Source of the DNA: Candidatus Aminicenantota bacterium
GTDB taxonomy: Bacteria > Acidobacteriota > Aminicenantia > UBA2199
Assembly (NCBI GenBank): GCA_026393835.1
Contig: JAPKZK010000103.1
Span: 1 to 64,000 of the forward strand
Direction of reading: 5' to 3'
DNA: 64,000 nt
Shown here: one piece after another, positions 2 through 62,164 of the stretch
How positions within the stretch are numbered: the stretch's first letter is position 1
Layout of the letters: every line of letters starts with the position of its first letter
Made by a program: the position numbers and the translations under genes
The notes under the pieces: model-generated
Seen by the model: the letters and a program-made list of their open reading frames with translations, nothing else
Told to the model about the DNA's origin: nothing
The model's database searches: none

Positions 2-11440
<11,439 letters not shown>

Positions 11441-30788: not shown

Positions 30789-32051
30789 ATGTTTGATTTA
30801 ATTCTCGAATTACTGGCAAAAATTCGCCTGGGTGAGAGCTCTCTACTGGAACTACAGTCCCTGCGCTTTCGCGGCGACAAAAAAATAGACCTGAACCGGG
30901 AGAAAATCGCCGATGAAATCGCAGCTTTCGCCAATACCAACGATGGCGTGATAATATTCGGGGTGGATGATTCTACTCGCTCCATCGAAGGCATACCGAT
31001 AGAAAAATTGGATATCGCCGAGGAGTTTATCCGTGGAATCTGTCATGACGCCATGGACCCACCGGTGTTTGTCCGCATCTTCCGCCTGGAACTCCCGGAT
31101 ACACTGGGGAACCTTAAACCTGTTTTGAAAGTAGAAATCCCACGCAGCCTTTTTGTACATAAAAGCCCGGGGGGCTATTACCGGAGGATCGGCAGTTCCA
31201 AGCGTGAATTAAATTCCGAAGCCCTGGCCCGGTTGTTTCAACAGAGAAGCCAGACCCGCTTGATCCGTTTCGATGAACAGCCGGTCCCCGGCACATCCCC
31301 GGATATCCTGGAAGAAAGTTTATGGAAAAGATTTATGGGGAATTCCCCGGATAATCCCCTGGTTTTTCTTGAGAAAATAGGAATCATTACCCGTGATGAA
31401 GCCGGTGAATTAAGGGCTACGGTAGGTGGGTTGTTAATGTGCTGCCCCTGTCCTGAAAAGTACCTGCCCAATGTGTTAATCGAAGCGGTCAGGTATAAAG
31501 GGACCGCCCGTGATTCCAATTATCAAATCGACGCCGCCCAGTTAAAGGGACCACTGGACCGGCAAATTGCCCTGGCCCTGGCGTTTGCCGTGAAAAACAT
31601 GCAGGTTGCCGCCAGGAAAGAGCCCGGTAGAATCGAGATACCCCAATTTAGCCTGCGCGCCTTCTATGAAGCCGTAGTAAATGCCGTGGCCCACCGCGAC
31701 TATTCCTTGCACGGCTCCAAAATCAGACTGTTTATGTTCGATGACCGATTAGAGTTATATTCGCCCGGCGCTATTCCCAATACCATGACTATCGAAAGTC
31801 TTCCCTTGCGACAGTCCACCAGGAACGAATTAATAACCAGCATGCTGGCGCGATGCCCAAATACCCCCGGCGAACCGGGCGATCACAGGCAATTCATCAT
31901 GGAAAAACGCGGCGAAGGTGTACCGGTTATTATAAAGGAAAGTTTGGAACTCTCCGGCAGGGAACCGCAATATCGCTTAATCGATGAAATAGAACTCCTT
32001 CTCACTATATTCGCGGCAAAAGCCGACAATAAAAACGTAACGCAGTCCTGA
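30789..32051 (+). CDS. AlbA_2 (Schlafen-like) and HATPase_c_4 protein
   Basis: The 420-residue protein starts with an AlbA_2 domain (ELQSLRFRGDKKIDL, EIAAFANTNDGVIIFGV, GGYYRRIGSS) and continues with a GHKL-type ATPase segment, AFYEAVVNAVAHRDYSLHG followed by SPGAIPNTM. Such proteins are often called RecG-like transcriptional regulators; their biochemical role is mostly unknown and they are enriched near mobile or defence genes. GGAG lies 8 bases before the ATG, and a TATAAT box is visible at 30737-30742. No winged-helix tail is obvious after residue 400. Confidence 0.8.
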   Translation: MFDLILELLAKIRLGESSLLELQSLRFRGDKKIDLNREKIADEIAAFANTNDGVIIFGVDDSTRSIEGIPIEKLDIAEEFIRGICHDAMDPPVFVRIFRLELPDTLGNLKPVLKVEIPRSLFVHKSPGGYYRRIGSSKRELNSEALARLFQQRSQTRLIRFDEQPVPGTSPDILEESLWKRFMGNSPDNPLVFLEKIGIITRDEAGELRATVGGLLMCCPCPEKYLPNVLIEAVRYKGTARDSNYQIDAAQLKGPLDRQIALALAFAVKNMQVAARKEPGRIEIPQFSLRAFYEAVVNAVAHRDYSLHGSKIRLFMFDDRLELYSPGAIPNTMTIESLPLRQSTRNELITSMLARCPNTPGEPGDHRQFIMEKRGEGVPVIIKESLELSGREPQYRLIDEIELLLTIFAAKADNKNVTQS

Positions 32052-40128: not shown

Positions 40129-40364
40129 TGTACCAACTCCTGACCGATGCGTAGATAATTAGCGGCAAAATCAACGGAACAAATTTTATAAAAGTTTCTT
40201 TTATAATCATTATTCTTTCTCAAGAATGATTATAATGGAAATGAGGATTAAAATCAAGTTGGGGGAAGAAAAAAGGGACAGGGGAAAAAATGCCCCTTCC
40301 ATTCCAACAGTTTTCGATATAATAATCGTTCCATGGGGGTGATTATAGTCGTTTTTGTCTTTTA
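40129..40364. other. Intergenic region with a hairpin and a truncated ATPase-gene copy
   Basis: An imperfect inverted repeat (TAATCATT...AATGATTA) lies at about 40203-40233. At about 40297-40360 is a near-exact copy of the promoter and first codons of the ATPase gene at 49112 (shared word ACAGTTTTCGATATAATAAT), pointing to the - strand and cut off after about 12 codons. Confidence 0.65.
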
Positions 40365-42430: not shown

Positions 42431-43249
42431 GATGCGTGATCGCATGAAAATGAGGCAATGTCGGTTCTTGAAGATGGATCAATGCAAGAAAAAGAGGCGG
42501 CATCGGTTCTTAAGGATGGTTTATCGCATGTTGATGAGGCGACGTTGGCTCCCGGGGATGCGTGATTGGGTGAGATCGATGCATATTTTCGTCTAAGGGA
42601 TACAAAATTGCTATAGCCGGATGAAAAATTGTCTCCCAGGGATGTAAAATTTCATGAGCGGGATGGAAAATCGGGTCATTGAAATGAAAAATTGCCTGGG
42701 AGGGACCAAAATTTGTCTCCTGGGGATGGTATTTTTCATAGAGGTGAGGTGATTTTTGGTCTCCGGGATGGTTCATCGCATGAAGAGGAGGCGACGTTGG
42801 TTCTTGAGGATGCGTGATCGCTTGATGTGGATGCATATATGCATCCATGGGACAAAAAATCGCTTGAGCCGGATGAAAAATTGTCTCAAAGGGATGCAAA
42901 ATTCCATGAGGAGAACCAAAATTTGTCTCCCTGGGATGGTATTTTTCATGAAGATGAGGCGATTTTTGCTATCGAGGATGGTTCATCGCATGAAGAGGAG
43001 GCGACGTCGGTTCTTGAAGATGCGTGATCGCTTGATGCGGATGCAAATTTGCATCCAGGGGACACAAAATTGCTTGAGCCGAATGAAAATTTGTCTCGAC
43101 AGGACAAAAAATTGTCTCGACGAGATAGAAAATTGCCTCGGCTTGACCAAAATTTTTATTGAGGGAATGAAAAATTCCCTGGACCGGATGGAAATTGGTT
43201 CGATGGGATAGAAAATTGCCTGGGATGGACCCATCATTTGCCCAATCAT
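42431..43249. repeat. 21-bp periodic tandem array 2 (39 units, A-tract phased)
   Basis: Exactly 39 units of 21 bases run from 42431 to 43249 with no indel. A common unit begins GATG, then AAAATTG or AAAATTT, then TCTC and a purine-rich end. A-tracts therefore recur every two helical turns. A higher-order repeat of ten units (210 bp) is visible: the unit at 42767 is identical to that at 42977 and neighbours match. The frame beginning with the GAT codon contains repeated TGA stops (in GATGCGTGATCG units), while other frames on both strands stay open by chance. The sequence differs from array 1 but the period is the same. Confidence 0.9.
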
Positions 43250-43487: not shown

Positions 43488-45458
43488 ATGAAAAACCAAG
43501 GGGAAAAAAGTACAATTAAAGATTGCACATTTGCACGCACCGTCCCATTTTTTCTGGCTGCAGAAACGGGGGAAAAGCAAGGAAGCTCAAGTCACGGGGC
43601 GTTTTGGGTGGAACCTAATGAAGTTCAATCCCGATATGCGTCGGCTCATTGTTACACGCACACGTCTTGTGTTGTTTCGGAGAATGTGAATCGGAACCTT
43701 GTCGTTCTTGTATCTTTGATGGATGACCGCATTCCGTTCGCGGGAGAGTCACTCGGTATCCTGGCAATTTCTGGCTACCTTCAAGCGCAAAAGAGAGCTG
43801 TGGTGCGAATGTTTGACATGCAACTGAGCTCGGTCGATGAGGTCATTGAATATATTAAGACAAACCGGCCTGGTATGCTGGGATTTTCCGTCAAACACAA
43901 TTCATTGAATCAGCTTTTGGATTTATATTCTCGTATGGACGACCGGATCCCCCATTCCCAACGCCCGGTGTTGGTAGTCGGTAACACTCTTCCAGGGTAC
44001 ATCGATGAAACACTGTTGAGAAAGCTTTTGCCAGACAGCGTAATTGGTCTTGGAGAGGGAGAAGTGTGTATGGGAGATATGTTCGATTTCGTTCAAGGGA
44101 CACGGCATCTTTCTGATGTTCGCAATATCGCCTATCTGGATGCGGGGACACTTATCCGCCGTCCCATTGTCGCCATGAACAAAACAGAATACGCACTTCC
44201 TGATCGCAGCTTGTCCAAAATGTTCTACGAACGAGGAGGCTTGATTTACAGCGAAAGATCGAGAGGTTGCCCTTGGGGTAGCTGTACCTTCTGCCCTCGC
44301 GAACACGAACCGATGAGGAATCCAAAGAATAACAGGCCCGGACGACTGCGCCGGGGACCTTCATGGCGTGTAAGAGACACTGAAACGGTGATTGAAGATC
44401 TCAAACAACTCCAAAACCTTGGAATAAAGAATGTGCGGTTTGCCGACGAAGATTTCATCGGACCCGGATTGCCGGGCATTCAGAGCGCTCAGGAATTTGC
44501 CAAAGCTGTGTTGAATCAATGCCTCCGGATCCATTTCGACGTGATTGCGAGAGTCGATTCGGTCTTCAACGATCATGACGACAAAAAAACAAGAATCGCA
44601 CGAAAACAAATGTGGTCCGAGTTGGTCGAGGCCGGGCTGGTGAAGGTGGCTCTCGGCGTCGAAACCTTCAGCCCTAACCAGCTTAAACGATACGGGAAAG
44701 GTGTGACCATAAAGGAAACCATTGAAGCTATTCGAATTTTAAAGCGCGATCTGCAACTTGAGATTGAAGTGGGTTTTATTTCCGTAGATGTTATGTCAAC
44801 TCTCGACGATATACAGGACACACTCTTCGGACTGAGGCAACATGAGTCTGACCTCTATGCTTCAACGGCTTTCAAGGAAATGCGCGTATATCACAACACA
44901 CCCTATCTTCGACTAGTTCGGGCCGCAGAGAGGGAGTTTCAGCGGACGCTGCTCGGTCCCTTGAACATCAACACCCTTGAGTACGCGGTGGAACGATATT
45001 TAAACGACGATGTGGACATATTGGCAAGGCATTTACGCCAATGGAATGGCCGCGCCTACGAATTATTTTACTTGCTCAGGATTTATACCAATACTTCGTC
45101 GCAGGCTCATCGCCTCAGCGCAGCGAACGAATCGGTCCATCATTGTCTGCCGCAGTTGATAGAAGATTGGCGCAGGCTTGAACTGCAAGTCCTGCTCGAA
45201 TCGATTTCGACTCTCCAAAAGCGCAGTGAAGGGTTCAAGGAGAAGGAGTTCCAAATCGACCGGTTGGTAAAACGATATGAGGTCCACAGATATGAGCGCG
45301 TACGTGGCCTCGCGGCGCTCCTCGATAATGAACTCCGCAGTTTTGACTCTCCTTTGGCGCCCCTGAAGCGCGACGTTATGAGCTACTTAGAACGCGCCGA
45401 AAGATACATCACCGCCCTTCCCGATCATTGTTGTAACAATCTCGGTTGCCAGGAATAA
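43488..45458 (+). CDS. B12-binding-type radical SAM protein
   Basis: The 656-residue protein has a cobalamin-binding-like Rossmann region (residues 70-220: LVVLVSLMDDRIPFAGESLG, PVLVVGNTLPGY, VIGLGEGE). It lacks the DxHxxG His, so any cobalamin would bind base-off. The radical SAM core has GCPWGSCTFC, a C-x4-C-x2-C arrangement (Cys 261, 266, 269), then VRFADEDFIG and VALGVETFSPNQL. The substrate is unknown. The last 150 residues are helical and unlike known domains. The first gene of a tight three-gene operon, it is followed after 2 bases by a histidine phosphatase. Codon use is less GC-rich than in the flanking catabolic genes, which suggests acquisition. Confidence 0.82.
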   Translation: MKNQGEKSTIKDCTFARTVPFFLAAETGEKQGSSSHGAFWVEPNEVQSRYASAHCYTHTSCVVSENVNRNLVVLVSLMDDRIPFAGESLGILAISGYLQAQKRAVVRMFDMQLSSVDEVIEYIKTNRPGMLGFSVKHNSLNQLLDLYSRMDDRIPHSQRPVLVVGNTLPGYIDETLLRKLLPDSVIGLGEGEVCMGDMFDFVQGTRHLSDVRNIAYLDAGTLIRRPIVAMNKTEYALPDRSLSKMFYERGGLIYSERSRGCPWGSCTFCPREHEPMRNPKNNRPGRLRRGPSWRVRDTETVIEDLKQLQNLGIKNVRFADEDFIGPGLPGIQSAQEFAKAVLNQCLRIHFDVIARVDSVFNDHDDKKTRIARKQMWSELVEAGLVKVALGVETFSPNQLKRYGKGVTIKETIEAIRILKRDLQLEIEVGFISVDVMSTLDDIQDTLFGLRQHESDLYASTAFKEMRVYHNTPYLRLVRAAEREFQRTLLGPLNINTLEYAVERYLNDDVDILARHLRQWNGRAYELFYLLRIYTNTSSQAHRLSAANESVHHCLPQLIEDWRRLELQVLLESISTLQKRSEGFKEKEFQIDRLVKRYEVHRYERVRGLAALLDNELRSFDSPLAPLKRDVMSYLERAERYITALPDHCCNNLGCQE

Positions 45459-45460
45459 TA

Positions 45461-46042
45461 ATGTTGGACGATCGTTGTGGTATGAGTGATTTCTATTTTC
45501 TGCGGCATGGCGCAACGCTAGCCAATGAAGATGGCTACATGTGCGGGTCCGAGTGGGACCTCGAACTCTCCGAAGCGGGGAAGATACAGGCCGTTCAGGG
45601 GGCCGAGATAACACAGCGGCGCGTCAAGTCCCTGAAAACCATTTGCACTAGCCCTTTGCTGCGCGCCCGTCAAACCGCCAACGAAGTTTGGCTCCATTTC
45701 CCCGAAGCGGATCTGAAAGAAGTTGCAGAACTTCGAGAGTGGGATTTCGGACAGTGGAGCCGCGCCCCGTATAAAGACTTCAAGGAGCAATACCTGTCCT
45801 CTGGAAATCCTCCCGGGGGGGAAACCCGCCATGTTTTTGCAAACAGGGTTCGAGCAGCATTGGAAAAGTGTTTGTCTTTTACACGCCCGGTATTGATTGT
45901 CGCCCATGGAGGAGTCTGGATGATGATTCATCAAGCGCTCTCACTTAGCCTTATTGACGCTCCTCACGCGGTTCCTGTTCATGTCTTTCAGAAACCGGGG
46001 GGTGAGTGGAATCTACGGATACTAGATATGTCCGACAGATAA
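45461..46042 (+). CDS. Histidine phosphatase family protein
   Basis: The 193-residue protein belongs to the phosphoglycerate-mutase-like fold: FYFLRHGATLANEDG holds the phospho-accepting His in RHG, CTSPLLRARQTA follows, the acid is in ELREWDFGQWS, and LIVAHGGVWMMI carries the second catalytic His. It would remove phosphate from a small metabolite or nucleotide. AGGA lies 7 bases before the ATG at 45461; ATG 45482 is an alternative. The 2-base gap to the radical SAM gene indicates translational coupling. Confidence 0.86.
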   Translation: MLDDRCGMSDFYFLRHGATLANEDGYMCGSEWDLELSEAGKIQAVQGAEITQRRVKSLKTICTSPLLRARQTANEVWLHFPEADLKEVAELREWDFGQWSRAPYKDFKEQYLSSGNPPGGETRHVFANRVRAALEKCLSFTRPVLIVAHGGVWMMIHQALSLSLIDAPHAVPVHVFQKPGGEWNLRILDMSDR

Positions 46043-46081
46043 ACCGGCCTCTCGTTTGGGGCCGGAGGAGAAGATTACTAA

Positions 46082-47632
46082 ATGAATTGGTTAACTAAAA
46101 TGATCGCTCGATTGAGAGGACCGCGGAAAAAATCGGCTAAGTTCCTCTTCATCAGTCACGCGAGCAAAGATGAGACACTAATCGACGCATTTGTGGACCT
46201 GATAGAGAGCGTTGGCCTGGATTCCTCCACCCAGATATTCTATACATCTCGATCGCGTCTGGGTGTTCCGCCAGGTGATAATTTCACTAATCATATCCAG
46301 CAGCGAATAAGGGATGCGGAGTTTGGCCTTGCAATTATCACGCCCAACTTCTTAGAGAGTCAATACTGTCTCTGTGAACTAGGGTGCCATTGGGGTGTGA
46401 ATAAAAAGCTCTATCCGATCCTCGTGCCACCGATGGTAAATTCAGATATCCCTGATATGATCGCGGGTATCGAAGCGCTCAATATTGACCGTGGCAATGA
46501 ACTCGATTCATTGGCTCATGTAATCGCCCTTCGTCTACGGGACGGCGAACCGGATTGGCTGAAGTGGAATGAAAAAAAAGACCACTTTCTCAAGAATTTG
46601 CCGACTCTGCGCAAGAACACTTCCTCTTCTTCGCCTCCTGAACTACACAAACCTTTGACCATCGTTTTTTATACTCCGTCACTTATGCCGCATTCCTTTT
46701 GCTCGGAGATCATTGATTCTGCAGTTGATTCGGCTAAAAAGAGGCATTTCACGTTCGTGTTGGAGGTCGGCACGGGGCGTCATACTTCAACGGAACACCT
46801 TGATGTTCTTCTAAAGTATTGCGAGTCCAAAAACACGGTAATCCTCATGATTCCACCCAACCCCGAGTCGTACACCAAGATTTGGCAAATTCTTGGAGTC
46901 GTTTCCCAAAAAAATGGTGGATGGAACAATGTCACCAGTTTGATCACACTGGATATCCCACCTGATCTCACTTCAAAAGAAAACTTGGATGCGTTTCAGA
47001 AATGCGAGGCGCACAAAGAAGTCATTGCGGTAAACAGTGACATGGGAGCGCAATTTGCTGCGAAAGAGATAGTCAGTTTTTGCAAGGACAAAAAACTGCA
47101 ATCAATTACGGTAATCATTTGTGAAGGCAATTTGCACGGTCAACCATTGAACGACCGCGGGAAAAAATTCAACTCCGCGATAATAAGCATGGCTTCCAAA
47201 TGTGGTCTGAGGATCGAGAATCTCTGGGACGGGGAGGCGCTTGATTTTGATAACGCATTCGATGCTGCATATAGATATGTGAAGACAATTCTGTCGAGCA
47301 AAAATATCTCGCACGACAACGTGTTCGTTTTCTGCGCGAACGATAATCTGGCCCTCGGAGCGTCCTGTGCTTTAAGTCACCATGTCTGTAACACAAACGA
47401 TCAACGGAAATTCAGGATAATCTGCTTCGACCGTTCGCACCTGATAGACAAGTATATTAAATTGAAGCACGGATTCTTTTGGAGAGCCGTTGATCAACAG
47501 ACTCAATTAATGGCCAATCAAGCAATGAGTACTGCTTTAAGCCTTTTTTCTGACACTCCGCTTCTTCCGCCTGACAAGGTACTCAAGAGTCCCCCCGCAA
47601 TCTACTCACCACCACCTAGCACGGATGGTTAA
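46082..47632 (+). CDS. TIR-domain protein fused to a periplasmic-binding/LacI-type ligand sensor
   Basis: The 516-residue protein has an N-terminal TIR domain (residues 18-165: FLFISHASKDETLIDAF, IFYTSRSRLGVPPGDNF, AIITPNFLESQYCLCELG). Glu 99 sits where NAD-cleaving bacterial TIRs keep their catalytic Glu. A Ser-rich linker leads to a type-1 periplasmic-binding fold (about 192-500: LTIVFYTPSLMPHSFCSEII, VIAVNSDMGAQFAAKEIVSF, VFVFCANDNLALGA). There is no signal peptide, so this sensor is cytoplasmic, as in LacI repressors, but without an HTH. Binding of a small ligand may control NAD cleavage. GGAGGAG precedes the ATG. I do not know a named system with this architecture. Confidence 0.85.
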   Translation: MNWLTKMIARLRGPRKKSAKFLFISHASKDETLIDAFVDLIESVGLDSSTQIFYTSRSRLGVPPGDNFTNHIQQRIRDAEFGLAIITPNFLESQYCLCELGCHWGVNKKLYPILVPPMVNSDIPDMIAGIEALNIDRGNELDSLAHVIALRLRDGEPDWLKWNEKKDHFLKNLPTLRKNTSSSSPPELHKPLTIVFYTPSLMPHSFCSEIIDSAVDSAKKRHFTFVLEVGTGRHTSTEHLDVLLKYCESKNTVILMIPPNPESYTKIWQILGVVSQKNGGWNNVTSLITLDIPPDLTSKENLDAFQKCEAHKEVIAVNSDMGAQFAAKEIVSFCKDKKLQSITVIICEGNLHGQPLNDRGKKFNSAIISMASKCGLRIENLWDGEALDFDNAFDAAYRYVKTILSSKNISHDNVFVFCANDNLALGASCALSHHVCNTNDQRKFRIICFDRSHLIDKYIKLKHGFFWRAVDQQTQLMANQAMSTALSLFSDTPLLPPDKVLKSPPAIYSPPPSTDG

Positions 47633-47783: not shown

Positions 47784-49112
47784 CTATGTTATTTTCCCGG
47801 CCAGGTAAAGCGGATAATTATGTATCGGGGTACTCTCCCTGTGAAGATTATTAGCGGTAATCTTTATCATCAGCGGCGGCGCATATTTATTCTTATAAAC
47901 CAAAAGACTCTTGGCCTTGGTTCGCTGCCCTGATTTTACTTCCACCGGGATAACAGCGTTGTCTATTACTTTTAAAAATTCTATTTCGGATTCTTTACCG
48001 ACCCAGGAATAAAGCTCCCTGTCCCCGGCTCCGCCATACCCCGCGGCGATAAATTCCTGCGCCGTAAAATTTTCCGCATAAAATCCCTTATACTGCCCGT
48101 AATCCTGGTTCAAAATCGAATCGAAAGATAAATCCATCATACACCCCAGCAGCCCTGTATCGAACAGGTAGAGTTTAAAGATATTGTCGATTTTGAAATT
48201 TTTCAATGGCAATGCCGGTGTATTCACGATAAATACCTTGATAACAAGACCTGATTTCAAAAGCCAGTCGATAGGACCTTCTAACTGCACGAATTTGCTC
48301 TTATTGGGTATGATTCCTTTAAACCGGAACCGCGATACCGAGTCATCGATATTCTTCGATAATTGTACCGGGATATTATCAAACACCCGGTTAATATGCG
48401 CGGCATTTTCTTTCCCGGCATGTTTGGCAAAATCGCCGCGGTATCCTTGCAGTATCGCCTGCTGAACGCTTCTCACATTATTAAAGGTTTCATGGGGATT
48501 GTCTTTTAAATCGAGATACCGTTTCACCGCTTCCGGCATTCCCCCAGTGATATAATAAACTTTTAAATCCTGCCACAATTGGTGATGGATCACTTCCGGG
48601 ATAACCGTTTCATTTGAAAATTCCGCCAGGAGGGCAGCTTTTCTTTTATTAATGGCCATAAGAAATTCTTCGAAATTCATGGGAAATAAATTCAAAAAGT
48701 CCACCTGGCCGACGGGAAAAGATTTTTGATTCAAACTGACCCCGATATGGGACCCGGCACAGCAGAGGGCCAATTCCTTCATGTCCTCGTTAAAATACTT
48801 TAAGCTGGTCAGGGCTCCCGGGCATTCTTGTATTTCATCGAAAATCAAGAGGTCGGTTTCGATATCGATTTCTTTATCCAGGATGATCGATATATTTTCG
48901 ATTACCCTCTTGGTATCGAAGGTCTCTTTGAAGAGGAAGTCCAGGTCATGCCTCCTCTCAAAATTGATATAATGGACCTGTTTAAATTCCCTGCGGCCAA
49001 ATTCTTTCAACAGGAAAGTTTTGCCCACTTGCCGTGCTCCCTGGAGCAGTAAGGGTTTCCTATATTTTGAACTCTTCCATGCCAACAGTTTTCGATATAA
49101 TAATCGTTCCAT
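47784..49112 (-). CDS. DUF4143-type AAA ATPase
   Basis: The 442-residue protein has Walker A LLLQGARQVGKTFLLKEF, Walker B DLLIFDEIQECPGALTSLKYF, and the DUF4143 C-terminal region ending with ELYSWVGKESEIEFLKV and VIPVEVKSGQRTKAKSL, a nuclease-like E-V-K core. The family is widespread in anaerobes and of unknown function. I start at MERLLYRKLLAWKS because the upstream in-frame codons cover the promoter. The -10 box ends 7 bases before this ATG, giving a leaderless transcript. A truncated duplicate of its 5' end lies at about 40297-40360. Confidence 0.85.
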   Translation of the reverse strand: MERLLYRKLLAWKSSKYRKPLLLQGARQVGKTFLLKEFGRREFKQVHYINFERRHDLDFLFKETFDTKRVIENISIILDKEIDIETDLLIFDEIQECPGALTSLKYFNEDMKELALCCAGSHIGVSLNQKSFPVGQVDFLNLFPMNFEEFLMAINKRKAALLAEFSNETVIPEVIHHQLWQDLKVYYITGGMPEAVKRYLDLKDNPHETFNNVRSVQQAILQGYRGDFAKHAGKENAAHINRVFDNIPVQLSKNIDDSVSRFRFKGIIPNKSKFVQLEGPIDWLLKSGLVIKVFIVNTPALPLKNFKIDNIFKLYLFDTGLLGCMMDLSFDSILNQDYGQYKGFYAENFTAQEFIAAGYGGAGDRELYSWVGKESEIEFLKVIDNAVIPVEVKSGQRTKAKSLLVYKNKYAPPLMIKITANNLHRESTPIHNYPLYLAGKIT

Positions 49113-49119
49113 GGGGGTG

Positions 49120-49171
49120 ATTATAGTCGTTTTTGTCTTTTTTTGCAAGGAAAAAAAGTCAAAAACGACTT
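49120..49171 (-). promoter_or_regulatory. Leaderless promoter embedded in a long inverted repeat
   Basis: On the - strand TTGCAA (49143-49148) and TATAAT (49120-49125) are 17 bases apart and directly precede the ATPase ATG at 49112. Bases 49125-49171 form an inverted repeat with arms of about 20 bases (AGTCGTTTTTGTCTTTTTTT and its near-complement) around GCAAGG, centred on the -35 box. Confidence 0.6.
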
Positions 49172-53350: not shown

Positions 53351-54892
53351 ATGCAAATTAAAGGTTTAATTAAAAAAGGGGAATACTTCGATTCCATTTC
53401 ACTGATGATTGCCACTCAAAAGATCAAGCAAATGGAAGGCGTGGTAGACGCGGCGATTATGATGGGCGTCCCCGAAAATAAGGTCATTTTAAAAAGTTCG
53501 GGGTTCCTCATCGATTTGTTCCTGGACGCCGAAGACTCGGACCTGCTGGTGGCTGTCAAAGCGGCGGATGAAGCGATGACCCAAGAAATCCTGCGGAAAA
53601 TCGCCGACCTGTTAAAAGATACCGGGAAAAAAGAGAACCGGGGTGTGGAGTTTACTCCCCGCGGCCTGGAAGGGGCTTTAGCGGCATTACCGGGCGCCAA
53701 CCTGGCCCTGGTTTCGGTGGCGGGGAAATATGCGGCCCACGAAGCAATGGCGGCTTTGAAAAAAGGGTTGCACGTGATGATCTTTTCAGATAACGTCCCG
53801 CTGGACAAAGAGATTGAATTAAAAAAATACGCGCGGCAAAAGGGTTTGCTGGTTATGGGGCCGGACTGCGGCACTGCCATCATCAACGGCGTACCCCTGG
53901 CTTTTGCCAATGTGGTGAACCGGGGCAATATCGGGATAGTCGCCGCTTCAGGTACCGGTCTGCAAGAGGTCGCCTGCCTGATCTCCAATAACGGCGGCGG
54001 GATTTCCCAGGCCATTGGCACCGGCGGCCGGGATGTGAAACAAGAGGTCGGCGGTATCACCTTCCTCTCCGCCCTGGAAATGCTGGCCCAGGACGATCAA
54101 ACCAAAGTCATCCTGCTGGTCTCCAAACCACCGCACCCGGAGGTCCTGGCCAGGATCGGGCAAAAGGTTAAAGGGTTCTCCAAACCCGTGGTGGCGGTTT
54201 TCCTGGGCGCGGCTGCCCCGGAGGTGGAAGTCTATGGGATCACGGCGGCGCCGGACCTGGCCGCGGGCGCGGAAAAAGCGCTGGCCCTGGCGGGTATTCA
54301 CATGGACAAAAGGGCCAATGAAATGGATTTATCGGCTGTCGCCCAAAATATTGCGGCGAAACTGCACCCAACACAGAAATATTTACGCGCCCTCTTCACG
54401 GGCGGTACGTTTTGCAGTGAAACCCAGGTCATTTTAAAGGGATTGCCGGGTCTCTTTTCCAATACCCCAATTGCCGGCGCCCAACCGCCGGTAGATGTTT
54501 GGAAAAGCCAACAACACACGGTGATAGACCTGGGGGAAGATACTTTTACGGTGGGGAAACCCCATCCCATGATCGATTTCTCCACCCGTAACCTTCGTAT
54601 CCTGCAAGAAGCCCGGGACCCGGAAACGGCGGTTATCTTGCTGGACCTGGTCCTGGGATACGGCGCTAATTTGAACCCGCTGGCGGAATTGTTGCCGGTG
54701 CTGGTTGAGGCTAAAGCATTGGCCTGCACCCAGTATAAGCATAGAGAACTACCGGTGATTTGTTCGGTTACGGGTACGGACGCCGACCCGCAGAACCGGG
54801 GTTTGGTGGTCAAAGCGCTGCGGGAAGCAGGTTGTATTGTTTGCGCCTCCAACGCCCAGGCGGCGAAGTTGTGCCAAAAGGTTATACCATGA
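53351..54892 (+). CDS. fdrA: FdrA family protein (acyl-CoA-synthetase-like)
   Basis: The 513-residue protein has the N-terminal FdrA region (GEYFDSISLMIATQKIKQM, AIMMGVPENK), a CoA-binding Rossmann part (GLLVMGPDCGTAIINGVPL), and a succinyl-CoA-synthetase-like phosphotransfer region (GIVAASGTGLQEVACLISN). In FdrA the canonical phospho-His loop is altered. In Escherichia coli the allantoin locus encodes FdrA with YlbE and YlbF, reported as an oxamate carbamoyltransferase. The start of the next gene overlaps this stop (ATGA). A DUF2877 (YlbF) partner is not in the window. Confidence 0.85.
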   Translation: MQIKGLIKKGEYFDSISLMIATQKIKQMEGVVDAAIMMGVPENKVILKSSGFLIDLFLDAEDSDLLVAVKAADEAMTQEILRKIADLLKDTGKKENRGVEFTPRGLEGALAALPGANLALVSVAGKYAAHEAMAALKKGLHVMIFSDNVPLDKEIELKKYARQKGLLVMGPDCGTAIINGVPLAFANVVNRGNIGIVAASGTGLQEVACLISNNGGGISQAIGTGGRDVKQEVGGITFLSALEMLAQDDQTKVILLVSKPPHPEVLARIGQKVKGFSKPVVAVFLGAAAPEVEVYGITAAPDLAAGAEKALALAGIHMDKRANEMDLSAVAQNIAAKLHPTQKYLRALFTGGTFCSETQVILKGLPGLFSNTPIAGAQPPVDVWKSQQHTVIDLGEDTFTVGKPHPMIDFSTRNLRILQEARDPETAVILLDLVLGYGANLNPLAELLPVLVEAKALACTQYKHRELPVICSVTGTDADPQNRGLVVKALREAGCIVCASNAQAAKLCQKVIP

Positions 54893-56313
54893 GCATAAAA
54901 ACATTATTCGATACGGAGTTAAAAGTAATCAACATCGGTTTAAAGTCCTTTAAAGAAACCCTTGACCAATGTAAGGTCGCCTCGGTCCAGGTGGACTGGC
55001 GGCCGCCGGCGACTATGGATGAGCATTGGCAAGAGGTGATGGAACATCATAAAGAAACCATCGATGCGGCCAACCGCGAGGTATGTAACCGGGTTTTAAG
55101 CAGCCGGCCGGTACTGATCGGCCTGGATGTGGCTCTGGTGGCGATCCCGGGCATGAAAAAGAACCTGATTTTACATGCGGGTCCGCCGGTGGCCTGGGAA
55201 AATATGTGCGGACCGATGCGGGGCGGGATTATTGCGGCCTTGAAATATGAAGGGTTGGCCAGAGACGACCGGGAAGCGGAGCATCTGGCGGCTTCGGGTG
55301 AAATCGAATACGCCCCTTGCCATGAACATGCCGCTGTCGGCCCCATGGCGGGTATTGTGTCTGCCTCTATGCCGGTGTTTATCGTAAAAAATGAAAACCG
55401 CGGCAATGTCGCCTACTGCACGATGAATGAAGGTTTAGGGAAAGTCCTTCGTTACGGGGCGTTTAGCGCGGCAGTGATCGAGAAATTGCAATGGATGGAA
55501 AAGGTGCTTTATCCCACTTTAAAAGCAGCGGTGGCGGATTTAGGGAGAATCGATTTAAAGAACATCATTGCCCAGGCGCTGCACATGGGCGATGAGGTAC
55601 ACAACCGCAACCGGGCCGCCACTTCGTTGTTCTACCGTCAAATCACCCCGGCTATTATTCGTACTTCCGAAAATAAAAAGGAGATGATCGAGGTCCTGGA
55701 GTTTATTAACGGCAATGACCACTTTTTTTTAAACCTTTCCATGGCCGCGTCTAAAGTGTCGTTAGATGCCGGCCGGGATGTGCCCGGCAGCAGTGTGGTT
55801 ATTGCGATGGCGCGTAATGGGACGGAATTTGGTGTGCAGCTTTCCGGCGCCGGGGATCGCTGGTTCACCGGGGCCGCGCCCGTACCCGACGCCCTTTATT
55901 TTCCCGGTTTTACCAGGGCGGATGCCAACCCCGATATCGGGGACAGCGCCATTACCGAGACCAATGGGCTGGGCGGTTTTGCCATTGCCGCCAGTCCCGC
56001 TATTGTGCAGTTTGTGGGTGGAACCGCTGCCGATGCAGTGAACTATACATTACAGATGTATGAGATCACAGTGGCTGAAAACAACATGTACCGGATACCT
56101 TACCTTAATTTCAGGGGCACGCCCACGGGTATCGATGTCAGACAGGTGATAGCGAAAAACCTGTGTCCTTTTATCGATACGGGGGTGGCGCACAAGGAAG
56201 CGGGGGTCGGTCAAATCGGGGCGGGCGTTCTCAGCGCACCGCCGGAACCTTTTAAAAATGCTTATATCGGACTGGCAAAAACTTTTGCCCCCGGCGGGTC
56301 AGGACCTTTTTGA
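54889..56313 (+). CDS. DUF1116 (YlbE-like) protein
   Basis: The 474-residue protein starts at ATG 54889, overlapping the fdrA stop. Typical segments are RPVLIGLDVALVAIPGMKKN, LHAGPPVAWENMCGPMRGGI, and YAPCHEHAAVGPMAGIVSA. It pairs with FdrA in putative carbamoyltransferase complexes; the reaction here is inferred only from that partnership. The stop codon lies inside a perfect hairpin (56302-56323), so the last residues (GGSGPF) come from a dispersed repeat. Confidence 0.85.
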   Translation: MSIKTLFDTELKVINIGLKSFKETLDQCKVASVQVDWRPPATMDEHWQEVMEHHKETIDAANREVCNRVLSSRPVLIGLDVALVAIPGMKKNLILHAGPPVAWENMCGPMRGGIIAALKYEGLARDDREAEHLAASGEIEYAPCHEHAAVGPMAGIVSASMPVFIVKNENRGNVAYCTMNEGLGKVLRYGAFSAAVIEKLQWMEKVLYPTLKAAVADLGRIDLKNIIAQALHMGDEVHNRNRAATSLFYRQITPAIIRTSENKKEMIEVLEFINGNDHFFLNLSMAASKVSLDAGRDVPGSSVVIAMARNGTEFGVQLSGAGDRWFTGAAPVPDALYFPGFTRADANPDIGDSAITETNGLGGFAIAASPAIVQFVGGTAADAVNYTLQMYEITVAENNMYRIPYLNFRGTPTGIDVRQVIAKNLCPFIDTGVAHKEAGVGQIGAGVLSAPPEPFKNAYIGLAKTFAPGGSGPF

Positions 56314-56323
56314 AAAAAGGTCC
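56302..56323. repeat. Perfect hairpin covering the DUF1116 stop codon
   Basis: GGACCTTTTT and AAAAAGGTCC flank GA. It resembles the 1286-1315 element and could act as a weak terminator or RNA stabiliser within the operon. Confidence 0.75.
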
Positions 56324-56358
56324 CGACACCCCCAAAAACTTCTAATAAGGAGATAAAT

Positions 56359-57183
56359 ATGGAATTAGAACAATTTTTAAATTTTATGGATGACATGGAG
56401 GTCCTTGATTTAACCCAGGATTTAAGTATTCATACGCCGCCGTGGCCCAGTTACATGCCTATGGGCTTACAGTACTTCAAACGCATTGCCGGCGCCCATA
56501 TGGGACAGGGGGCCAATGGACAGATCATGACCACCAGTAACCATGTGGGCACCCATATGGACGGTGAAATTCATTTCTGGTCCTGCGGCCGCGCCATTGG
56601 CAAAGTGCCCATGAAAGAATGGATCGGGCAGGCCGCCGTGGTAGACCTTTCCGATGAATTGAAGGACTATGAACTCTATACCCCGGACATGATCACAAGT
56701 AAAGTCGAGGTAAAAAAAGGCGATATCTTGATTATCAATACCGGTTACAACAGGTACGCCTGGAATCAACCCCAGGCCGATGAACTCCGCTACTTTGTCA
56801 AACACCCCGGACCGGGCAAAGATTTTCACACCTGGGCCATTGACATGAAATTAAAGTGGATCGGCGTGGACTGCGGCAGCGCCGACCATCCCATGAATAC
56901 CATTATCCGGCAATGGCACCCCGCCCGTTTTGCCGAAGCGGAAGCGCTGCTAATAAAGAAATACGGGGCCAAATCGTGGGACGATTATTTTCCGCCCGAA
57001 GAGTATTACCAGGTCATGCATATCAAACTCTTCCCGCACACCATTGTCCATGCGGAAAACCTGGGCGGCGAGATCAATAAATTAAAGAATACCCGAGCCT
57101 GGATCGGTTGTTTCCCCTTAAAAGGCATCGAATTGGAATCGGCCATGTGCCGTATCGTGGCTTTTATGCCGCCTAAAAAATAA
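56359..57183 (+). CDS. Cyclase family (KynB-like) metal-dependent hydrolase
   Basis: The 274-residue protein carries the family metal motif as SNHVGTHMDGEIHF (HxGTHxDxxxH) and the second region GVDCGSADHPMNT. Relatives include kynurenine formamidase and isatin or hydantoin-type ring hydrolases, which open cyclic amides or cleave formamides with a divalent metal. Between FdrA/DUF1116 and a molybdenum hydroxylase, a ring-opening role is plausible. AAGGAG precedes the start. Confidence 0.85.
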   Translation: MELEQFLNFMDDMEVLDLTQDLSIHTPPWPSYMPMGLQYFKRIAGAHMGQGANGQIMTTSNHVGTHMDGEIHFWSCGRAIGKVPMKEWIGQAAVVDLSDELKDYELYTPDMITSKVEVKKGDILIINTGYNRYAWNQPQADELRYFVKHPGPGKDFHTWAIDMKLKWIGVDCGSADHPMNTIIRQWHPARFAEAEALLIKKYGAKSWDDYFPPEEYYQVMHIKLFPHTIVHAENLGGEINKLKNTRAWIGCFPLKGIELESAMCRIVAFMPPKK

Positions 57184-57222
57184 AATAATAGGTCTTTTAA
57201 TCTTTTTTTGCGAGGTAAGAAT

Positions 57223-58110
57223 ATGGGTTTTGTTAAAGAGTTTGAATACTTTAAACCAACCGGTCTGAAAGAGGCGGTGTCGCTCTTATCTGCCCATAAG
57301 AAGACCGCCATCCTGGCCGGGGGCACCGATTTGGTAGTCGAAATCAAAGGGGGACCGGCGGCGCCGGACGTCGTGGTGGATATCAAAGGATTAAGTGAAC
57401 TGGCCGGGATCAGCTTTGACGGGAACGTTTTACGAATCGGCGGCCTCGTCACCTTCACCCAATTACTGCAATCGGAGGTCGTTCGCCAATTTTTCCCGGT
57501 GCTGCAAGAAATGGCCGCGACAGTCGCTTCCGGCGCCGTGCGCAACCGCGCCACCATGGCCGGGAACATCTGTTCCGCCGTTCCCTGTATGAACAGCGGC
57601 CCTGTTATTTGTTTGTACGACGCCCAGATAACCCTTTTCGGACCCCGGGGCGAACGGACAGTCCCAGCCCGGGACTGGTTCACCGGTGTGCGGCGCACCG
57701 CCATCCAGCCGTCCGAGATCCTGACCGCCATCACCTTCCCTGTTCCTGCCCCCCGGCAAGGCGCCTGTTTTGTGAAACTGGGCCGTTATGCCGGTGAAGA
57801 CCTCGCCCAGGTGCTGGTGGCCGTGCTGGTCTTGCCCGGCCATCATTACCGCGTCAGCTTCGGCGCGGTCGCACCCGTGCCTTTACGGGCCGCCCGGATA
57901 GAGACGCTGCTGCAAGGCAATATCCCGGATGAGGCATTAATCGGTGCCGCCCAGGACCTGATCGACATCGAGATCGCGCCTATCACCGATATCCGCGCCG
58001 GTAAAGAGTACCGGCTGCACATGGCCAAAGTCATGTTTAAACGGGCCCTCACAGCGGCATTACAACGGTTCCAGGGCGCGGGACCGGCCTATGGAACCCC
58101 ATTGATTTAA
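57223..58110 (+). CDS. Molybdenum hydroxylase FAD-binding subunit (CoxM/XdhB-like)
   Basis: The 295-residue flavoprotein passes electrons from the 2Fe-2S subunit to an acceptor. The FAD contacts are visible in TAILAGGTDLVVEIKGG and the second loop RNRATMAGNICSAVPCMNSG. The start at 57223 has GAGG 9 bases upstream. It is the first of three consecutive genes encoding a xanthine-dehydrogenase-family enzyme. Confidence 0.9.
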   Translation: MGFVKEFEYFKPTGLKEAVSLLSAHKKTAILAGGTDLVVEIKGGPAAPDVVVDIKGLSELAGISFDGNVLRIGGLVTFTQLLQSEVVRQFFPVLQEMAATVASGAVRNRATMAGNICSAVPCMNSGPVICLYDAQITLFGPRGERTVPARDWFTGVRRTAIQPSEILTAITFPVPAPRQGACFVKLGRYAGEDLAQVLVAVLVLPGHHYRVSFGAVAPVPLRAARIETLLQGNIPDEALIGAAQDLIDIEIAPITDIRAGKEYRLHMAKVMFKRALTAALQRFQGAGPAYGTPLI

Positions 58111-58141
58111 GGGATTGTAATGAATTGAATTGGAGCAAACC

Positions 58142-58642
58142 ATGTTGTATGAAATCACATTTATATTAAACGGTGAAGAACGGCGCCTCGGGGTTCAACC
58201 CAATGAGACGCTGCTGGATGTTTTACGCCGTAAACTGGGCATTACCAGCCCCAAAGTCGGCTGTGAACGGGGCGACTGCGGCGCATGCACGGTGAAACTA
58301 AACGGCCTGTTGGTGAAAAGCTGCCTCATCCTGGCCGTCGAAGTTAATGGCCAGGAAGTAACCACCATCGAAGGACTCATGGCCAAAGGACTCACCCCAC
58401 TGCAAGAGATGTTTATGGCAAAAAACTCTTTCCAATGCGGGTACTGCGCCCCCGGCATGATTTTGGCGGCCGACGACCTGCTGGCAAGGAACCCGGACCC
58501 CAGCGACCACCAGATCAAAGAGGCGCTGGCGGGGAACTTGTGCCGCTGCACCGGCTACGAACCCATTATCGGGGCCATCAAAGCGGTGGCCGCCAATAAC
58601 AAAGCATCCGCGGGACAGACCCGGGGAGGTAACGATGAGTAA
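58142..58642 (+). CDS. Molybdenum hydroxylase 2Fe-2S subunit (CoxS/XdhC-like)
   Basis: The 166-residue protein binds two [2Fe-2S] clusters: the plant-type cluster in GCERGDCGACTVKLNG with a later Cys in VKSCLI, and the second cluster in FQCGYCAPGMIL and NLCRCTGYEPI. Length and order match CoxS. GGAG lies 7 bases before ATG 58142. The stop overlaps the start of the large subunit by 8 bases. Confidence 0.93.
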   Translation: MLYEITFILNGEERRLGVQPNETLLDVLRRKLGITSPKVGCERGDCGACTVKLNGLLVKSCLILAVEVNGQEVTTIEGLMAKGLTPLQEMFMAKNSFQCGYCAPGMILAADDLLARNPDPSDHQIKEALAGNLCRCTGYEPIIGAIKAVAANNKASAGQTRGGNDE

Positions 58643-60995
58643 ACAGGAATATAAATATATCGGGCAATCGACCCCCCGTATTGACGGCAAAGAAAAAATT
58701 ACCGGCGCCACCTGTTTTGTGGACGATATCCAGTTCGGCCCCAACCTGCTCTACGCCGCTGTAGTAGAAAGCCCCCATGCCCACGCCTTGATCGAAAAAA
58801 TCGATACCGGCCGGGCGGCCAAGGTGCCCGGGGTGGTCAAAGTCGTGACCGGCAAAGAGTTTCCCTTCCGTTTCGGTTTGTACATGCATGACCGCTATGT
58901 CTTTGCCCAGGACCGCGTGCGTTTTGTCGGCGAGCAAGTGGCCGCGGTCATCGCCCGCGACCCCAGCGCCGCTAAAAAAGCCGCCGCCTTAGTGGAGGTT
59001 CAATATAAAGAACTGGTCCCCTTGCTCAATGTATTCGATGCCATCGGCGAACACCCCAAAAGCATTATCCACCCCGAATTAAAAAACTATGCCCACGTGC
59101 CCTGGTTTTTCCCTGAAGCCGACAGCAACATCGCCCATTTCCGTAAAGTCCGGCGCGGTGATATCGAGAAAGGTTTTGCCGAAGCCGACCTGGTGTATGA
59201 AGACCAATACGTCGTCCCCCGTTACGCGCACTGCGCCATCGAAGTCCATGCCGCCGTGGGTCTCCTGGACAATTCCGGACGTTTAACCCTATGGACCGCC
59301 TCCCAGTCGCCCCATACCCAGCGGCACCTCTTTACCCAGGCCCTCGCCCCCCTCGGTTTCACCCATCAAGATGTCCGTGTTATCAGCCCGGCCGTGGGCG
59401 GTGGTTTTGGGGGCAAAGCCGGCGTCTCCATGGAAATACTTGCCGCCGCATTAGCCACCGTCGTTAAAGGCAGCCACGTCAAAGTCTTGTGGTCCAGGGA
59501 ACAGGAGTTCTACAACACCTATCAACGGCAGGGCGTGCATGCCCGTTTGAAAGTGGGCGTTAAACATGACGGTACGATCACTGCCCTCGAACAGACCCTC
59601 TACTGGGATGCCGGGGCCTATGTCGAATATGGCGCCAATGTCGTGAATGCCGCCGGACTCTCCGCTACCGGGCCCTACCGCATTCCCAATATTAAAATGG
59701 ATTCCATATGCGTCTATACCAACCTACCCCCCGGTGGGCCCTACCGCGGTTTTGGGTATTCCGAGTTTATCTTCGGCCTCGAATCCCATTTTAATGAAAT
59801 AGCCAAAAAATTAAACATGGATGCCGTCGCTTTCAGGAGAAAGAACGCCATTCGTGAAGGCGATACCCTGGCCTACGGCGGCAAGATGAACCCCAACGGT
59901 TTGTTGGAAGCCATTGATAAAGTCGCACAGGCCATTGAATGGGACAAAGAGTTTCCTTCCACCGACCCCAATATCGCTGTCGGCAAAGGTTTTTCTTTAT
60001 TCTGGAAAGCGCCGGCCATGCCCCCCAATGCCTCCTCCTCTGCCTTTTTGAAGTTCAATGAAGACGCCGGCCTCAACATCCTCGTATCCGCCCAGGAGAT
60101 CGGCCAGGGGTTCCTCACCGCCATGGCCCAGGTTGCCGCCGAAGTCCTGGGCGTACCCCCCGACCGCATCCGCGTGGAATCGCCGGATACCGACCGCACC
60201 CCCTATGAATGGCAAACCGTGGCTTCCCATATTACCTGGGGCTGCGGCAACGCCGTGAAACGGGCCGCCGAAGACGCCCGCGAACAAATCTTCGACCTGG
60301 TAGAAAAAACCCTGGGCAAAAAACGCGCGGCCCTCTACCTGGAAGACTCGGCAGTCAAATCCCTGGAGGAACCCGAATTCAATTTACCTTTAAAAAGTTT
60401 TGTAATAGACGGGATCATAATGGCGGACGGCACCTGGCGCGGTGGGCCCGTGACGGGACGCGGCATGTTTATGCCTGAATTCTCATCGGCCGTCAGTGAC
60501 CCCGAGACCGGACAGGGCGGTAAACCCATGGTTCATTATACCGTGGGGGCCAGTGCCATTCGTATTGAAATCGATAAAGAGACCGGTAAAATACGTATCC
60601 CCAAAGTGGTCCTGGCAGTCGATGCCGGTCAAGCCATTAATCCCGGTTTAATACGCGGCCAGATCGTCGGTGGACTGCTGCAAGGTTTGGCCACGGTGTT
60701 ATACGAAGATATGCGTTTCAATGATAAAGGCAAGTTGTTGAACCCCAATTTCACCGATTATAAAATACCTACCGCCCTGGATATCCCCGCTGAAATCGTG
60801 CCCATTATCATCGAAGTCCCCCAGCCGGACGGACCTTTCGGGGCGCGCGGCATCGGCGAGCACACCATGATACCCGCCGCACCCATAGTCGCCAATGCCG
60901 TAGAAGATGCGCTGGGCATTCGCATCAAATCCATGCCTATTACCGCCGAGAAGATTGCCATGGCCATTAAGAAAATGGAGGAAAATAAGAAATAA
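58635..60995 (+). CDS. Molybdenum hydroxylase large (molybdopterin-binding) subunit, xanthine/aldehyde dehydrogenase family
   Basis: The 786-residue catalytic subunit has PRIDGKEKITGAT at its start, the MPT-contact loop VGGGFGGKAG, the YRGFGYSEFIFGLE region, EIGQGFLTAMAQVAAEVLG, and GARGIGEHTMIPAAP with the catalytic Glu. Such enzymes hydroxylate N-heterocycles or aldehydes with water as oxygen source. The active-site sequence does not let me name the substrate. No maturation or selenium gene is nearby. GGAGG lies 5 bases before the start. Confidence 0.93.
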   Translation: MSKQEYKYIGQSTPRIDGKEKITGATCFVDDIQFGPNLLYAAVVESPHAHALIEKIDTGRAAKVPGVVKVVTGKEFPFRFGLYMHDRYVFAQDRVRFVGEQVAAVIARDPSAAKKAAALVEVQYKELVPLLNVFDAIGEHPKSIIHPELKNYAHVPWFFPEADSNIAHFRKVRRGDIEKGFAEADLVYEDQYVVPRYAHCAIEVHAAVGLLDNSGRLTLWTASQSPHTQRHLFTQALAPLGFTHQDVRVISPAVGGGFGGKAGVSMEILAAALATVVKGSHVKVLWSREQEFYNTYQRQGVHARLKVGVKHDGTITALEQTLYWDAGAYVEYGANVVNAAGLSATGPYRIPNIKMDSICVYTNLPPGGPYRGFGYSEFIFGLESHFNEIAKKLNMDAVAFRRKNAIREGDTLAYGGKMNPNGLLEAIDKVAQAIEWDKEFPSTDPNIAVGKGFSLFWKAPAMPPNASSSAFLKFNEDAGLNILVSAQEIGQGFLTAMAQVAAEVLGVPPDRIRVESPDTDRTPYEWQTVASHITWGCGNAVKRAAEDAREQIFDLVEKTLGKKRAALYLEDSAVKSLEEPEFNLPLKSFVIDGIIMADGTWRGGPVTGRGMFMPEFSSAVSDPETGQGGKPMVHYTVGASAIRIEIDKETGKIRIPKVVLAVDAGQAINPGLIRGQIVGGLLQGLATVLYEDMRFNDKGKLLNPNFTDYKIPTALDIPAEIVPIIIEVPQPDGPFGARGIGEHTMIPAAPIVANAVEDALGIRIKSMPITAEKIAMAIKKMEENKK

Positions 60996-61149
60996 TAAAT
61001 AATAAATTCGAAATTCGAATATCGAAATTCGAAACAAATCCCAATGACCAAAACTGTAATTGATGAATGATGAATGATGAAAAAAAGACAAAAAACATTC
61101 GTGAAAATTCGTGTAATTCGTGGGCCAGAGTTATAAAGGAGTCTGAATC
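60996..61149. repeat. Dispersed repeats between the hydroxylase and CoA-transferase genes
   Basis: AATTCGAAATTCGAA words, TGATGAATGATGAATGATG (the reverse complement of the CATCATT elements inside the NRPS genes) and ATTCGTGAAAATTCGTG words fill the spacer. The following ribosome binding site is AAAGGAG. Confidence 0.75.
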
Positions 61150-62145
61150 ATGAGCTTACCAATTATCGATGAAGGGATCGGCGTGCTGTTCGCAAACCCG
61201 GATCCCGATTTAGCGCGCGCTTTTTCCAGGACGAAAAATTGCGGCCAACGAAACAAGGTAATGAGTCTGAAACAAGCCGTTGCCGAATTTGTGCATGACG
61301 GCGATTATTTAGCCACCGGCGGTTTTGGTTCCAACCGGACCCCTTTAGCCGCTTGCCATGAAATCGTGCGTCAAAAGAAAAAAAATATGGCCTTTGCCGG
61401 GCACACCACCACCCATGATTTCCAGGTATTGTGCGCCGGGAAAACCTTTAACCGGGTGGATTGCGCCTATATCGTCGGCCTGGAAGCGCGGGGCCTGTCC
61501 CCCAATGCCCGCCGGTACATGGAGAGCGGCGCCGTGGAAGTCACCGAATGGACCAACTACGCCCTTGCCGCCCGCCTCAAAGCCGGGGCCATGGGCGCCT
61601 CTTTTATACCCGTACGCAGCATGATGGGTACGGATACCTTCAAGTACAGCGCCGCCAAATTGATCGAATGCCCTTTCACCGGCAAAAAAGTTGTCGTTTT
61701 GCCCGCCCTCTACCCCGATGTCTGCGTCATTCATGTCCATGAAGCGGATATGTACGGCAATTGCCGTTTCAGGGGTATATCCGTGGCGGATATCGAACTG
61801 GCCGGCGCTTCCAAACGGGTCATCATTACCTGTGAGCGGCTCATTGCCAACGAAGAAATCCGCCATGACCCCAGCGCCACCCAGATCCCCTTTTATTTAG
61901 TCGATGCCGTGTGCGAGGTCCCTTACGGCGGTTATCCCGGCAACATGCCCTATGAATATTTCTCCGATGAAGAGCACTTAAACCAATGGTTGACCGCGGA
62001 AAAAGACCCCGAATTATTCGCCGCCTTCCTGGAAAAGAATATTTATAGCTGTGAAGACCATTTCCAATACATCGAGAAAAACGGCGGTTTGCACAAACTC
62101 CAGGCCTTACGGGCCAAGGAGTTCCTGTTGAAAACCGGCAGTTGA
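61150..62145 (+). CDS. CoA-transferase subunit A (glutaconate/IpdA-like)
   Basis: The 331-residue class I CoA-transferase alpha subunit has LKQAVAEFVHDGDYLATGGF near the start, FAGHTTTHDFQVLCAG, VRSMMGTDTFKYSAAK, and VVVLPALYPDVCVIHVHEAD. The product would move CoA between acids, in this locus perhaps activating the ring-cleavage acid. Subunit B follows after 19 bases. Ring-degrading IpdA and glutaconate GctA are the nearest families I recognise. Confidence 0.9.
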   Translation: MSLPIIDEGIGVLFANPDPDLARAFSRTKNCGQRNKVMSLKQAVAEFVHDGDYLATGGFGSNRTPLAACHEIVRQKKKNMAFAGHTTTHDFQVLCAGKTFNRVDCAYIVGLEARGLSPNARRYMESGAVEVTEWTNYALAARLKAGAMGASFIPVRSMMGTDTFKYSAAKLIECPFTGKKVVVLPALYPDVCVIHVHEADMYGNCRFRGISVADIELAGASKRVIITCERLIANEEIRHDPSATQIPFYLVDAVCEVPYGGYPGNMPYEYFSDEEHLNQWLTAEKDPELFAAFLEKNIYSCEDHFQYIEKNGGLHKLQALRAKEFLLKTGS

Positions 62146-62164
62146 GGAGCTGAGGAGGAGAACC

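Follow-up and report, generated by a model that had tools for sequence, protein, structure and literature searches.

A three-gene operon from an Aminicenantia genome combines an OxsB-like radical SAM enzyme and a histidine phosphatase with a TIR protein carrying a periplasmic-binding-protein fold

We analyzed a 64,000-nucleotide stretch of DNA (the window) from Candidatus Aminicenantota bacterium, which corresponds to positions 1 to 64,000 of contig JAPKZK010000103.1 in assembly GCA_026393835.1, and describe a three-gene operon at 43488–47632. The first gene (43488–45458) encodes a 656-residue protein, P1, which Pfam, phmmer and Foldseek comparisons identify as an OxsB-like, cobalamin-dependent radical S-adenosylmethionine (SAM) enzyme. 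The second (45461–46042) encodes P2, a 193-residue histidine phosphatase of branch 1 that resembles CobC/alpha-ribazole phosphatases. The third (46082–47632) encodes P3, a 516-residue cytosolic protein in which domain searches and a structure model place a TIR domain together with a type-1 periplasmic-binding-protein (PBP) fold. All three genes, and the features described within them, are on the plus strand. The stop codons at 45458 and 46042 and the start codons at 45461 and 46082 leave gaps of 2 bp between P1 and P2 and 39 bp between P2 and P3, exactly as in a first-pass annotation made from the sequence alone, whose domain calls (radical SAM, histidine phosphatase and TIR-PBP) also held, with scores far above chance. 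A Shine-Dalgarno-like AGGA lies 6 bases before the P2 ATG, and GGAGGAG precedes P3; P2 has an alternative in-frame start, a TTG at 45446. No terminator-like site was found between the genes, including the P2-P3 gap, in terminator and promoter scans that returned matches at chance level. The operon is real, unusual and well defined.

P1 matches the Radical_SAM model of Pfam (9e-13) and, slightly under the gathering cut-off, the B12-binding model (1.7e-7), and no NCBIfam equivalog scored above its own cut-off. In a phmmer search of all PDB structures the top match was OxsB (5ul2, E 1.3e-41), with the runner-up at 3e-6. An AlphaFold (AF2) model of P1, built from five sequences and with a mean predicted local distance difference test score of 63, was also matched best by OxsB in Foldseek (5ul4, E 2.3e-32, TMq 0.67 over 650 columns), followed by the CysS/TokK family (4e-15). 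The modeled similarity to OxsB spans the full length of P1 and includes the cobalamin-binding domain, the radical SAM domain and the C-terminal helical bundle. The alignment places the [4Fe-4S] motif RGC-X4-C-X2-CPREH at 44262–44306 (C261, C266 and C269) with OxsB-like spacing, and the two proteins have in common the CX4CX2C spacing, the CPR(E/D)H tail and the ADE(D/E)FIG and QLKRYGKG segments. ADEDFIG at residue 319 of P1 corresponds to the OxsB segment holding Glu363, a residue that sits near S-adenosylmethionine. P1 carries DMQL where a DXHXXG motif would be, as in base-off/His-off cobalamin sites. The methylases TokK, CysS and TsrM are far more distant from P1 than OxsB is, in sequence as well as in fold. 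OxsB accepts dAMP, dADP and dATP, whose sugar ring it contracts, and it relies on a phosphohydrolase, OxsA (PMC13331322).

The relationship to OxsB raises the possibility that the product of P1 is itself antiviral, in the general manner of prokaryotic viperins, which are also radical SAM enzymes that alter a nucleotide in immunity. P1 would then make a chain-terminating, oxetanocin-like nucleotide, P2 would detoxify it, and P3 would be a back-up killer for cells in which this analogue, or the precursor of it, reaches excessive levels. OxsB does make an antiviral nucleoside, which OxsA inactivates when it is phosphorylated, and OxsB-like genes are present on mobile elements and phage-like contigs. 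We nevertheless consider this explanation unlikely, because it needs no PBP-TIR protein within the operon and because P1 matches no viperin model. P1 was rejected as a viperin on the grounds that none of its NCBIfam or PADLOC matches is to such a model; it comes from the B12-dependent, OxsB-like radical SAM family, and an effector gene is present here, unlike in the viperin systems.

P2 matches His_Phos_1 with an E-value of 1.7e-26 and has all of the catalytic residues of the family, in the motifs RHG (15–17), RARQTA (from 68), LRE (from 91) and AHGG (from 148); its PDB match is 2ekb (5.7e-9). With 77.5 bits against the CobC model TIGR03162, P2 falls far under the cut-off of 162.9 and so is not classified as CobC. 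This shortfall bears on another explanation, in which P2, as an enzyme of the CobC type, provides P1 with cobalamin, P1 methylates or otherwise modifies something other than a nucleotide (P3 itself, or a peptide), and the PBP domain senses an unrelated sugar. The top matches of P2 are indeed alpha-ribazole phosphatases, and B12-radical SAM enzymes are mostly methylases. Set against the low CobC score, the proximity of P1 to OxsB rather than to the methylases, and the absence from the operon of any visible gene for a small peptide, this scheme is decidedly unlikely. The gene pair is most like the OxsB/OxsA pathway for oxetanocin A, and like AlsB of the albucidin pathway: P1 has the full-length fold, the Fe-S motif and several of the active-site motifs, and a phosphatase gene lies next to it. 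The differences are that OxsA is an HD enzyme whereas P2 is a histidine phosphatase, and that a TIR-PBP gene is attached here.

The TIR domain of P3 covers residues from about 22 to 150 (46145–46531), in a part of the structure model that has high confidence, and was identified as SpbK-like by PADLOC, PDB and Foldseek comparisons. It matches Pfam TIR_2 at 3e-11 and the PADLOC spbK model at 1.1e-22. The closest solved structure by sequence is SpbK (4.2e-14), the TIR antiphage protein of the Bacillus subtilis element ICEBs1, and SpbK is also the nearest match by predicted fold (9phb, Foldseek TMt 0.81). The first-pass annotation had assigned Glu99 to the NADase position, and this assignment is corroborated by alignment of the Glu99 codon (46376–46378) with the catalytic Glu192 of SpbK. 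P3 residues E99, G101 and W104 equal SpbK Glu192, Gly194 and Trp197, so the alpha-C interface Gly and Trp are kept as well, and Glu99 is invariant across every TIR relative that was aligned. The NADase activity and antiphage role of the SpbK TIR domain have been proven by experiment, and mutation of Gly194 and Trp197 causes loss of both NADase activity and phage defense (PMC12847820). From these comparisons, and going beyond the first-pass annotation, the radical SAM protein of this operon is OxsB-like and its TIR domain is SpbK-like.

Thoeris and TIR-SAVED or TIR-STING systems of the cyclic-oligonucleotide-based antiphage signaling (CBASS) type also use a TIR NADase that is gated by, or makes, a nucleotide signal. 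Thoeris was rejected because the ThsB models reached only 1e-6 on P3 versus 1e-22 for spbK and no ThsA gene is adjacent, and CBASS was rejected because neither a CD-NTase nor a SAVED protein is among the neighbors seen. STING was not seen here either, and the signal maker proposed below is a radical SAM enzyme.

The sensor half of P3 (residues 201–489, 46682–47548) was recognized as an RbsB/LacI-like type-1 PBP domain by Pfam, hhalign and alignment with RbsB. Pfam Peripla_BP_4 matches residues 314–488 at 6.9e-7, under its gathering cut-off, and hhalign comparison of residues 201–489 with 22 PBPs gave a P-value of 7e-6 and a probability of 84% over 252 columns that cover both lobes. Foldseek matched the P3 model to LacI-family/PBP-I and solute-binding structures, in a region where the model has low confidence. 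In the RbsB alignment, at 18% identity, P3 residues R359, N420, D450 and Q472 fall at RbsB R141, N190, D215 and Q235, which we take to be ribose-contacting residues, so that 4/4 C-lobe contacts are kept. P3 has no visible signal peptide and no helix-turn-helix (HTH), as the first-pass annotation had described for this cytoplasmic PBP domain. P3 shares its fold and C-lobe ligand residues with type-1 PBP and LacI-type sensors such as RbsB, PurR and MalR, but differs from them in having neither a signal peptide nor a DNA-binding domain and in having a TIR domain as its output. The structure prediction bore out the TIR half of the annotated architecture with confidence, whereas matches to the PBP fold fell only on the low-confidence half, where they are backed by hhalign. 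No other Peripla_BP_4 gene was found in the 8.2-Mb assembly by a weak search, which also missed the sub-threshold domain of P3 itself.

The nature of this sensor distinguishes P3 from SpbK. SpbK is activated when the phage portal protein YonE binds its N-terminal domain, and the TIR domains close to that of P3 are mostly stand-alone genes in prophages. P3 might therefore act alone, with its PBP domain recognizing a phage protein directly and with P1 and P2 as bystanders. We regard this as highly improbable, since the SpbK sensor that docks on the phage portal is an N-terminal four-helix bundle, whereas P3 has a C-terminal PBP-I domain whose sugar-contact residues point to a small ligand. P3 also differs from SpbK in that two enzyme genes share its operon.

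Based on these comparisons, we propose that P1 and P2 make a modified nucleoside and that the PBP domain of P3 senses this product and triggers NAD+ depletion by the TIR domain, a reading to which we assign a probability of roughly 0.4. The operon would then be a single-unit, immune-type module that resembles abortive infection. P1 would alter the sugar of a nucleotide or deoxynucleotide, this substrate class being the one that we infer from OxsB, and P2 would strip one or more phosphates from the product. The cytosolic PBP domain would bind the resulting unusual nucleoside or sugar, and in the ligand-bound state would allow the TIR domains, which are SpbK-like, to come together and break down NAD+; control could in principle run in either direction, with the ligand as activator or as inhibitor. 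A plausible trigger would be a shift of the deoxynucleotide pool during phage infection, given that OxsB uses dAMP, dADP and dATP, and the function would presumably be defense. The first-pass annotation had suggested a similar logic, in which the radical SAM enzyme makes or modifies a ligand, the phosphatase turns it over and the PBP domain gates the TIR domain. That proposal has gained from OxsB being the closest relative of P1, from the partnership of OxsB with a phosphohydrolase and from the retained sugar contacts of the PBP domain, and it has lost ground because no second copy of the three genes was found in the searched space. Overall, the proposed system is a moderately supported hypothesis, that of a variant of TIR-NADase immunity with possibly new signaling chemistry.

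We searched 142 genomes of the class (including the source genome), a 396-genome sample of the phylum, plasmids, phages, viral contigs and genome contigs. The intact trio was present in 0 of 141 other class genomes, in 0 of the 395 others in the phylum sample and in none of the plasmids and phages. For other phyla, 84,980 species genomes were scanned with short degenerate patterns, an insensitive approach. The closest relatives of P1 in the class, phylum, plasmid and phage sets reach about 29% identity, and a DNA pattern for CPR(E/D)H gave one chance match in viral contigs (L044). No relative of P3 extended beyond the TIR part among 60 relatives or in any of the class, phylum, plasmid, phage, viral-contig and genome-contig sets, and the PBP part alone had zero matches to plasmids even at an E-value of 10. 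The co-occurrence of the three genes across genomes that the first-pass annotation had proposed as a check was therefore not seen, because no second genome in the searched space carries them, and the trio is a singleton so far. That annotation knew of no named defense system with this gene set, and none is described in the literature searched.

Several observations weigh against the proposed pathway. The missing second trio is its chief weakness: a conserved defense system would recur with an unchanged set of genes in a number of unrelated genomes, this one does not do so within the searched sets, and the neighborhood could therefore be accidental. Within P1, Lys136 occupies the position of OxsB Asn186 on the lower face of the cobalamin, where in OxsB the Asn lies under the cobalt (PMC13331322), and most of the OxsB N-terminal domain is missing. 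In a first tree P1 fell into a moderately supported group (83/88) that held OxsB and two plasmid genes of OxsB-like type, and its position beside OxsB lost resolution once four rows were added; because of this placement in the larger tree, we term P1 OxsB-like and not an OxsB orthologue. P2 is more like CobC, an alpha-ribazole-5'-phosphate phosphatase, than like a nucleotidase. The PBP half of the P3 model is of low confidence, its input alignment having consisted of TIR relatives only. The sugar contacts of the PBP N-lobe (N13, D89 and R90) are not kept in the RbsB alignment; with the C-lobe contacts retained, the P3 pocket therefore looks preserved but altered on one side. Finally, the phosphohydrolase genes found beside other OxsB-like genes are a raw tally, uncorrected for background.

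That tally nonetheless includes a recurring arrangement. In Sphingobium and Sphingomonas, a cassette of GntR, SurE nucleotidase, radical SAM and NUDIX genes (L019, 6290–10170; L030, 8223–12140) is conserved within the Sphingomonadaceae on plasmid and chromosome. An Agrobacterium locus (L020) has a radical SAM gene, a second radical SAM gene and a NUDIX gene, and recalls the albucidin pair. An aldo/keto reductase and an exo/endo-phosphatase lie beside the radical SAM gene on two Streptomyces plasmids and one phage-catalogue contig (L021, L076 and L082), and OxsB-type chemistry needs a reductase and a phosphatase. Radical SAM relatives of P1 are accompanied by an exo/endo-phosphatase and a NUDIX protein in Nocardia (L081) and by a pyrophosphatase in Enterococcus (L080). 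The P1-P2 pair fits this theme of a radical SAM enzyme with a phosphohydrolase, and five further OxsB-like loci (L022, L031, L034, L078 and L079) have no obvious phosphohydrolase.

The plasmid neighborhoods look biosynthetic, which would favor an explanation in which P1 and P2 form a small cassette for a nucleoside or other natural product and P3 is an independent TIR defense gene that landed in a gene-accreting island. The genome does have secondary metabolism, with two megasynthases in the window, and the lack of a trio elsewhere in the searched sets is also as expected. We consider this account improbable, because the 39-bp spacing between P2 and P3 is tight, all the genes lie on one strand with no terminator-like site between, and the TIR protein carries a small-molecule sensor domain that fits both enzymes.

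One other locus pairs an OxsB-like gene with an immune-type receptor. At 5236–9659 of L075, a viral-catalogue contig, a NUDIX gene, a gene for a 721-residue NACHT/STAND-like NTPase and an OxsB-like radical SAM gene form an operon in which 17 and 36 bp separate the genes, and a phage integrase gene adjoins them. The NTPase has a Walker A motif (GRGKST), a Walker B motif (LLIDGLDEID) and a weak Pfam NACHT match (1.3e-4). The radical SAM protein is a distant relative, matching OxsB at only 8e-9, and the contig stops at its gene. This gene order beside an integrase makes a second pairing of the OxsB-like enzyme class, together with a phosphohydrolase, with an immune-type receptor, and it supports the P1-P2-P3 proposal as a partial parallel but is a different operon. 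In a broader and doubtful form of the proposal, an OxsB-like enzyme and a phosphohydrolase would make a sugar-rearranged nucleoside messenger that is read by interchangeable immune receptors, a PBP-TIR NADase here and a STAND/NACHT NTPase in L075, and immunity based on nucleotide signals would gain a new class.

Two other sets of OxsB-like loci are described here for their own sake. L031 (183–13542) contains an OxsB-like radical SAM gene, a HerA-like ATPase, a second radical SAM-like gene, an HSP90-type ATPase and an SNF2 helicase like ZorD/DpdE, and looks like an undescribed defense or DNA-modification locus. On the viral-catalogue contigs L034 (2463–11097), L078 and L079, the OxsB-like radical SAM genes may allow mobile elements to modify nucleotides or DNA; the L034 contig also has a GmrSD-type restriction gene.

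The operon lies in an island that agrees broadly with the first-pass description: it is surrounded by genes for a Fic protein, an AlbA_2 protein, PDDEXK_9 ATPases, a DUF4143 ATPase and an MNT-type nucleotidyltransferase. A repeat search found a 68-bp direct repeat whose left copy (40296–40363) matches the DUF4143 gene in its leader and 5' end and whose right copy (49074–49141) lies at the 5' end of that gene. The copies are 99% identical, occur exactly twice in the assembly and bracket an 8.8-kb segment with one ATPase gene, the operon and the DUF4143 gene. Since its sequence is that of the DUF4143 leader together with the first codons, the repeat may mark an insertion boundary or be the scar of a duplication. 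The window contains no tRNA gene, and therefore no boundary of a tRNA-integrated island. Just upstream of the operon, 42431–43218 is a degenerate array that has a period of 21/42 bp and, above it, a larger unit of 210 bp. The AlbA_2 (Schlafen-like) protein is encoded at 30789–32051 and weakly matches a PADLOC pAgo-associated model. The two megasynthases (3811 and 2015 residues) are of the nonribosomal peptide synthetase/polyketide synthase type and occupy the contig start (5–17518). At 53351–62947, genes for a CoA-ligase, a cyclase, a molybdenum hydroxylase of the xanthine dehydrogenase type and a CoA-transferase look like an anaerobic catabolic operon.

Known bacterial immune systems with nucleotide signals use cyclic oligonucleotides or NAD-derived signals. 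If the proposed pathway is correct, its messenger would be, to our knowledge, the first signal to arise from a radical SAM sugar rearrangement, and P3 the first TIR NADase gated by a PBP domain. The pathway would also tie the enzymology of oxetanocin, an antiviral nucleoside, to bacterial immunity and would hint at the origin of such natural products. On this view the operon resembles a novel type of alarm against phages that works through a small molecule, with the trio seen once so far.

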